A DNA stretch of 64,000 bases from positions 1-64,000 of the forward strand of contig JALHNO010000018.1 in the NCBI GenBank assembly GCA_022843465.1, in the 5' to 3' direction. The DNA is from Pseudomonadota bacterium (GTDB taxonomy: Bacteria > Pseudomonadota > Gammaproteobacteria > Xanthomonadales > Ahniellaceae). Within the stretch, counting starts at the first letter, position 1. Each line of letters opens with the position of its first letter. A program made the translations under genes and the position numbers. The notes under the pieces are model-generated. The model was not told the origin of the DNA and searched no databases. It saw only the letters and a list, made by a program, of their open reading frames with translations. Below, piece after piece: positions 23,084 to 23,594 of this stretch.

Positions 23084-23461
23084 TCAGGCGGCAGCGTCCT
23101 TGAGTTTCTTCAGCGGACGCACCTTCACTTTCACCGAAGCCGGCTTGGCGGCGAACCATACCTCTTCCTTGGTGAACGGGTTGATGCCCTTGCGCTTGGG
23201 CTTGGCCGGCACATTGACCACGGTGATCTTCAGCAGACCGGGCAGCGTGAACGAGCCTGCGCCCTTCTTGCTGACCGAGCCAGCGACCGCGCCCTCGAGT
23301 GCGCCGAGTACTGCACGCACGTCCTTGGCGGCGACGCCGGTACCTTCCGCCAGATGGGCGACGAGGCCGGACTTGCTCAGTGCTTCTTTCACCGGCTTGG
23401 GGGCAGCGGCCTTCGCGGTTGCGGGGGCTTTGGTCTTTGTGGCTTTGCTGGCTTTGCTCAT
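23084..23461 (-). CDS. HU family DNA-binding protein with Lys/Ala-rich extension
   Basis: A 125-residue nucleoid protein. Residues 25-120 have the HU/IHF fold (KEALSKSGLVAHLAEGTG at the start, then the beta-arm RKGINPFTKEEVWF with the conserved Asn-Pro that intercalates DNA). The first 24 residues are a Lys/Ala/Thr/Pro tail like those of some xanthomonad and actinobacterial HU variants. AGGAG lies 10 bases upstream of ATG 23461. The stop lies inside a perfect 14-bp palindrome (23077-23090). The long leader is strongly structured. Confidence 0.92.
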   Translation of the reverse strand: MSKASKATKTKAPATAKAAAPKPVKEALSKSGLVAHLAEGTGVAAKDVRAVLGALEGAVAGSVSKKGAGSFTLPGLLKITVVNVPAKPKRKGINPFTKEEVWFAAKPASVKVKVRPLKKLKDAAA

Positions 23462-23493
23462 ACGCAGCGTACTCCTGGTTGGATTGAATTGGT

Positions 23494-23557
23494 CCGGACT
23501 ATCCGGGCGCAGCGCGAATTTAGGTCATTCGCGCTGCGCGCGCCATCCATGGGATGG
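23494..23557 (-). promoter_or_regulatory. Three consecutive hairpins in the HU leader
   Basis: From the promoter toward the gene: 23543-23557 (6-bp stem, 3-base loop), 23507-23539 (perfect 12-bp stem, 9-base loop) and 23494-23506 (5-bp stem, 3-base loop). They leave almost no unpaired leader except the last 30 nt with the ribosome site. There is no T-tract, so simple termination is unlikely. The element could control translation or stability of the HU message, or be bound as DNA by HU itself. Confidence 0.6.
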
Positions 23558-23566
23558 TCTGGCGCC

Positions 23567-23594
23567 ATTGTCGTGCATGCGAAGCTGTAGTCAA
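23567..23594 (-). promoter_or_regulatory. Sigma70 promoter of the HU gene
   Basis: On the minus strand: -35 TTGACT (23589-23594), a 16-bp spacer, -10 GACAAT (23567-23572). The expected start near 23560 gives a leader of about 99 nt containing the three hairpins. Confidence 0.6.

Follow-up and report, generated by a model that had tools for sequence, protein, structure and literature searches.

A probable shared promoter and a short 5'-terminal leader hairpin upstream of an Hlp-type HU-like gene and its Lysobacterales orthologues

The 5' untranslated region of Escherichia coli ompA is said to stabilise its mRNA through a 5'-terminal stem-loop, a finding reportedly made by Emory, Bouvet and Belasco in 1992 (cited in PMC7509114). 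Post-transcriptional control of an HU gene has been described for Salmonella hupA, whose 5' untranslated region is the site of repression by the small RNA RaiZ with ProQ (PMC5391140). Among HU-like proteins, Hlp (XC_1355) of Xanthomonas campestris pv. campestris has 140 residues with a PF00216 domain at residues 43–139, and a term search of this source returned no start site or leader for Hlp (PMC8578834). No prior report on a Lysobacterales hlp-type leader was found in the open-access literature searched.

The window, i.e. the whole 64-kb stretch of DNA analysed here, carries a gene of this type on the minus strand (23084..23461, ATG at 23461). Its 125-residue product is composed of a Lys/Ala-rich N-terminal tail and a PF00216 domain (profile search, 53 bits, 4e-14) and resembles Hlp of Xanthomonas. 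Hlp likewise joins an N-terminal extension to a C-terminal PF00216 domain, the two proteins differing in length (140 versus 125 residues) and being likened by description (PMC8578834). Xanthomonas orthologues (L074, L093) were of the window's type, with 132 residues. An earlier note on this DNA, made from the letters, had spoken of an HU gene. Membership of the HU-like PF00216 proteins was borne out, but canonical HU (HupA/HupB, 90 residues with PF00216 throughout) was ruled out by the length, the tail and the 53-bit score. Since three other HU/IHF-type genes of the same genome scored 99–117 bits with PF00216, this gene is not the main HU gene of its host. A Shine-Dalgarno sequence, AGGAG (23472..23476, minus strand), aligned with AAGGAG of Chiayiivirga.

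The distribution of the hlp-type gene was patchy within the window's GTDB family. The protein core was 94% identical to that of Arenimonas caeni and 61–73% identical to those of its own family (L143, L026). A near-closed genome of the same family (G002, 2 contigs) had three PF00216 genes and lacked the hlp-type one, and a congener (G001) had a candidate S41-type peptidase ORF at the corresponding position. Horizontal acquisition or relocation of the gene in the window's lineage is possible. Elsewhere in the genome of the window (L114, 1417-1446), a strong GC hairpin without a T-tract, GAAGCGCTTCGG-aaggat-CCGAAGCGCTTC, was observed between an S1-like ORF, whose stop it immediately follows, and an IHF-type gene.

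Three adjacent stem-loops lie upstream of the gene, as previously pointed out, at 23565-23540, 23539-23507 and 23506-23494 (read on the minus strand). They had all been called perfect, which holds for the middle repeat but not for hairpin 1 (23540..23565), whose 6+4 bp are interrupted by an internal loop. The middle repeat, or hairpin 2 (23507..23539), has 13-bp arms and a 7-nt loop instead of the 12-bp stem and 9-base loop first given, and hairpin 3 (23494..23506, minus strand) is the 5-bp stem with 3-nt loop CCGGA-TAG-TCCGG. For the 161-nt region the predicted fold had -65.9 kcal/mol and a z of -4.6, and none of 200 shuffles came as low. Within the 64-kb window the middle repeat was the sole perfect inverted repeat of at least 11 bp with a loop of 3–12 nt, and its 13-bp stem was matched by none of 1000 shuffles of a 150-nt region. 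No T-tract follows the hairpins on either strand and a terminator scan of the locus was also empty, in agreement with the earlier note; an intrinsic terminator or attenuator, in which a T-tract follows a GC stem, was thereby rejected. At this locus, neither the window nor any of six relatives matched an Rfam covariance model. A search of the own genome returned the palindrome region as a single copy, which rules out a REP/BIME-type repeat.

Which of these hairpins are transcribed depends on the promoter. The comparison set comprised about 95 orthologous Lysobacterales loci, 92 of them distinct, and upstream of the gene 83 of the 92 displayed a TTGGCG-like -35 box (5 or 6 of 6 positions) together with a TACATT-like -10 box. 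The conserved promoter reads TTGGCG-N17-TACATT, the spacer being of 17 nt in 79 orthologues and of 18 nt in 4, with the -10 box mostly 54–77 nt before the ATG. The top match in the window to a matrix built from the 83 orthologues, the window being left out, was ATGGCG-18-TAAATT, 61 nt before the ATG. It scored 7.6, a value reached by 0 of 300 shuffles (maxima with mean -18, sd 5.7). On the minus strand, matrix and Chiayiivirga alignment both place the -35 box at 23541..23546 and the -10 box at 23517..23522; the -35 box is one base off the TTGGCG of the relatives and the spacer is 18 nt, not 17.

The most window-like leader was that of Chiayiivirga flava (L059), identical to the leader of G090 and alignable from the -10 box down. 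BLASTN homology between the window and G090 begins at 23524, at the -10 box, and extends into the coding sequence (72%). From the -10 box to the ATG, the alignment with C. flava scored 59, against 15 +/- 6 and a maximum of 39 in 500 shuffles; above the -10 box the similarity was weaker yet present, with 6 of 500 shuffles as high. The proteins of both organisms share the N-terminus MSKASKAT. Comparison at the sequence level thus identifies TAAATT and ATGGCG as homologues of the Lysobacterales promoter. The HU-like gene of C. flava has a divergently oriented neighbour upstream, a gene for bacterial small SRP RNA (L059 2418-2514, minus strand); none was found at the corresponding place in the window.

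A -10 box at 23522-23517 would put the start of transcription near 23510 (23508..23512, minus strand, about 7 nt after the -10 box), and hence give a leader of about 49 nt. Hairpin 2 contains the -10 box, in its loop and 3' arm, and hairpin 1 covers the -35 box and DNA upstream of it. From such a start, hairpins 1 and 2 would be promoter DNA and the leader would hold hairpin 3 only. The previous view that all three hairpins belong to the HU leader is therefore probably wrong, as the conserved -10 box sits within hairpin 2.

Small hairpins of the GCC...GGC kind were found directly after the -10 box of the relatives in several designs: TGCC-GNRA-GGCA in Dyella and Rhodanobacter, GCCGAC-GGG-GTCGGC in Xanthomonas, Stenotrophomonas and Pseudoxanthomonas, GCCGG-N5-TCGGC in Luteimonas, and longer two-part stems in Arenimonas and Lysobacter. 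A stem of at least 3 bp after the -10 box was possible in 68 of the 70 distinct relatives with a GCC-type, sequence-only anchor, and the longest stem of the anchored leaders averaged 3.96, versus 2.55 in shuffles. Loops of 4 nt were GNRA in all 18 distinct leaders that had them (GAGA, GAAA, GCGA, GUGA), GNRA loops being a signature of RNA. Folded one sequence at a time, the start region gave modest z-scores (mean -0.84). When all leaders were put into one MAFFT alignment, their differing loop lengths kept the 3' arms from lining up, and covariation was for this reason counted in two subgroups. The examination for compensatory changes gave a divided answer: a 5' hairpin was kept among orthologous leaders, but covariation inside it was weak because its GCC/GGC core hardly varies.

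In the short leader of the window, hairpin 3 is predicted to fold as drawn, about 4 nt after the presumed start, and the same place reads CCGGA-N3-TCCGG in the window and CCGGG-N3-TCCGG in C. flava. The comparison demonstrates recurrence at this position and points to hairpin 3 as the counterpart of the orthologues' 5'-terminal hairpin. Conservation of the structures thus differed along the region: hairpins 1 and 2 were absent at this place from Chiayiivirga and the other orthologues, whereas a counterpart of hairpin 3 was nearly universal. Lack of conservation among close relatives, named in the earlier note as a ground for refuting its reading, thus holds for hairpins 1 and 2. The suggestion of a stability element survives for hairpin 3, right after the -10 box, but not for hairpins 1 and 2, which lie over the promoter.

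These observations are best accounted for by a reading to which we assign a probability of roughly two in three. The hlp-type gene would be transcribed mainly from the Lysobacterales-conserved sigma-70 type promoter (ATGGCG 23546-23541, TAAATT 23522-23517), yielding a leader of about 49 nt from near 23510, which opens with the small 5'-terminal hairpin (23506-23494) and continues, with little structure, through the Shine-Dalgarno sequence. By analogy with ompA, the terminal hairpin would protect the 5' end of the mRNA against loss of its pyrophosphate and against entry of RNase E, making the message long-lived. The mRNA probably carries this one short hairpin at its start as an ordinary protective cap. 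Hairpins 1 and 2 would act as promoter DNA, and the 13-bp palindrome over spacer, -10 box and start would be of lineage-specific origin, either mutational (template switching) or as an operator.

It is unlikely that transcription starts instead near 23560, from the TTGACT-16-GACAAT site at 23567..23594 (minus strand), with a leader of about 99 nt whose three hairpins serve stability or translation control, perhaps beside the conserved promoter. The promoter announced there does exist as a match. It agrees with 9 of 12 consensus positions, where about 0 such matches are expected in shuffles, stands closer to the E. coli consensus than the conserved site, and ranks second under the orthologue matrix, albeit at -4.9; the strong fold (z -4.6) also speaks for such a leader. 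However, the promoter orthologous to those of relatives is located within the middle repeat, 50 nt further downstream. The upstream site, a possible second promoter, is unconserved, Chiayiivirga having ACAAAAATGG there and reading ACAAAAAT at the position of the candidate -10 box, and neither promoter nor hairpins were found so far upstream in relatives. Predicted pairing of the Shine-Dalgarno sequence was equal in short and long leaders and independent of hairpins 1 and 2, against the translational control once proposed; with the pairing of the start likewise the same with or without these hairpins, an RNA thermometer or translational switch was rejected. 

Two further explanations concern the middle palindrome and are both compatible with the conserved-promoter account. 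Neither C. flava nor any other relative examined carried the palindrome. An ungapped test for a conserved dyad around the -10 box of relatives was negative (mean p 0.47); in a gapped test 16 of 84 reached p ≤0.05, an excess that we tentatively put down to the conserved GGCG (-35) and CGC (after -10) plus shared ancestry. The palindrome, specific to this genome, probably arose by mutation, with a role as an operator being possible. Template switching explains it most economically: the start region ATTCGCGCTGCGC would have been copied into the spacer in reverse-complement form, leaving a palindrome devoid of function; as a complete explanation, we hold this to be tentative, at a little under even odds. 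The downstream arm is common to the window and C. flava, while the upstream arm occurs in the window only; ATTCGCGCTGCGC is nearly unchanged in C. flava, where the spacer contains the near-complementary GGCGCAACGC (8/10). This partial complementarity was however not significant (p 0.12), and the congener G001, which would have offered the closest comparison for dating the event, is without the gene. Action as a DNA operator, where a dimeric repressor, or the HU-like protein of this gene on an extruded cruciform, would block RNA polymerase as a lineage-specific control, appears rather improbable. A 13-bp palindrome far beyond chance, unique in the genome and centred on the -10 box, a usual position for a repressor, would suit this role, but it is missing in relatives, has no second genomic copy as a shared regulator would need, and no regulator was seen among the adjacent genes. 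A self-sensing supercoiling switch, in which the HU-like protein binds the cruciform extruded from the promoter of its own gene, is very improbable.

Correcting the promoter call avoids a false three-hairpin leader. Across Lysobacterales, hlp-type HU genes appear to combine a strong common promoter with a short hairpin at the 5' end, in many cases capped by a GNRA loop, and their leaders lend themselves to simple tests of 5'-end mRNA protection in this order. The nearest parallel is the 5' untranslated region of ompA in which, as in the leader proposed for the window, a hairpin at the 5' end or close to it precedes a single-stranded segment that contains the ribosome site. The window differs in having one very small hairpin behind a start deduced from the -10 box, a 5-bp stem being small for a stabiliser, and no sequence homology is claimed. 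That hairpin 3 is an ompA-like stem-loop slowing mRNA decay is accordingly put forward as an analogy. Salmonella hupA likewise involves an HU gene controlled after transcription by way of its leader; no sign of a small RNA was seen in the window, whereas hupA encodes a canonical HU, has weak leader structure and is repressed by a trans-acting small RNA at the ribosome site (PMC5391140).
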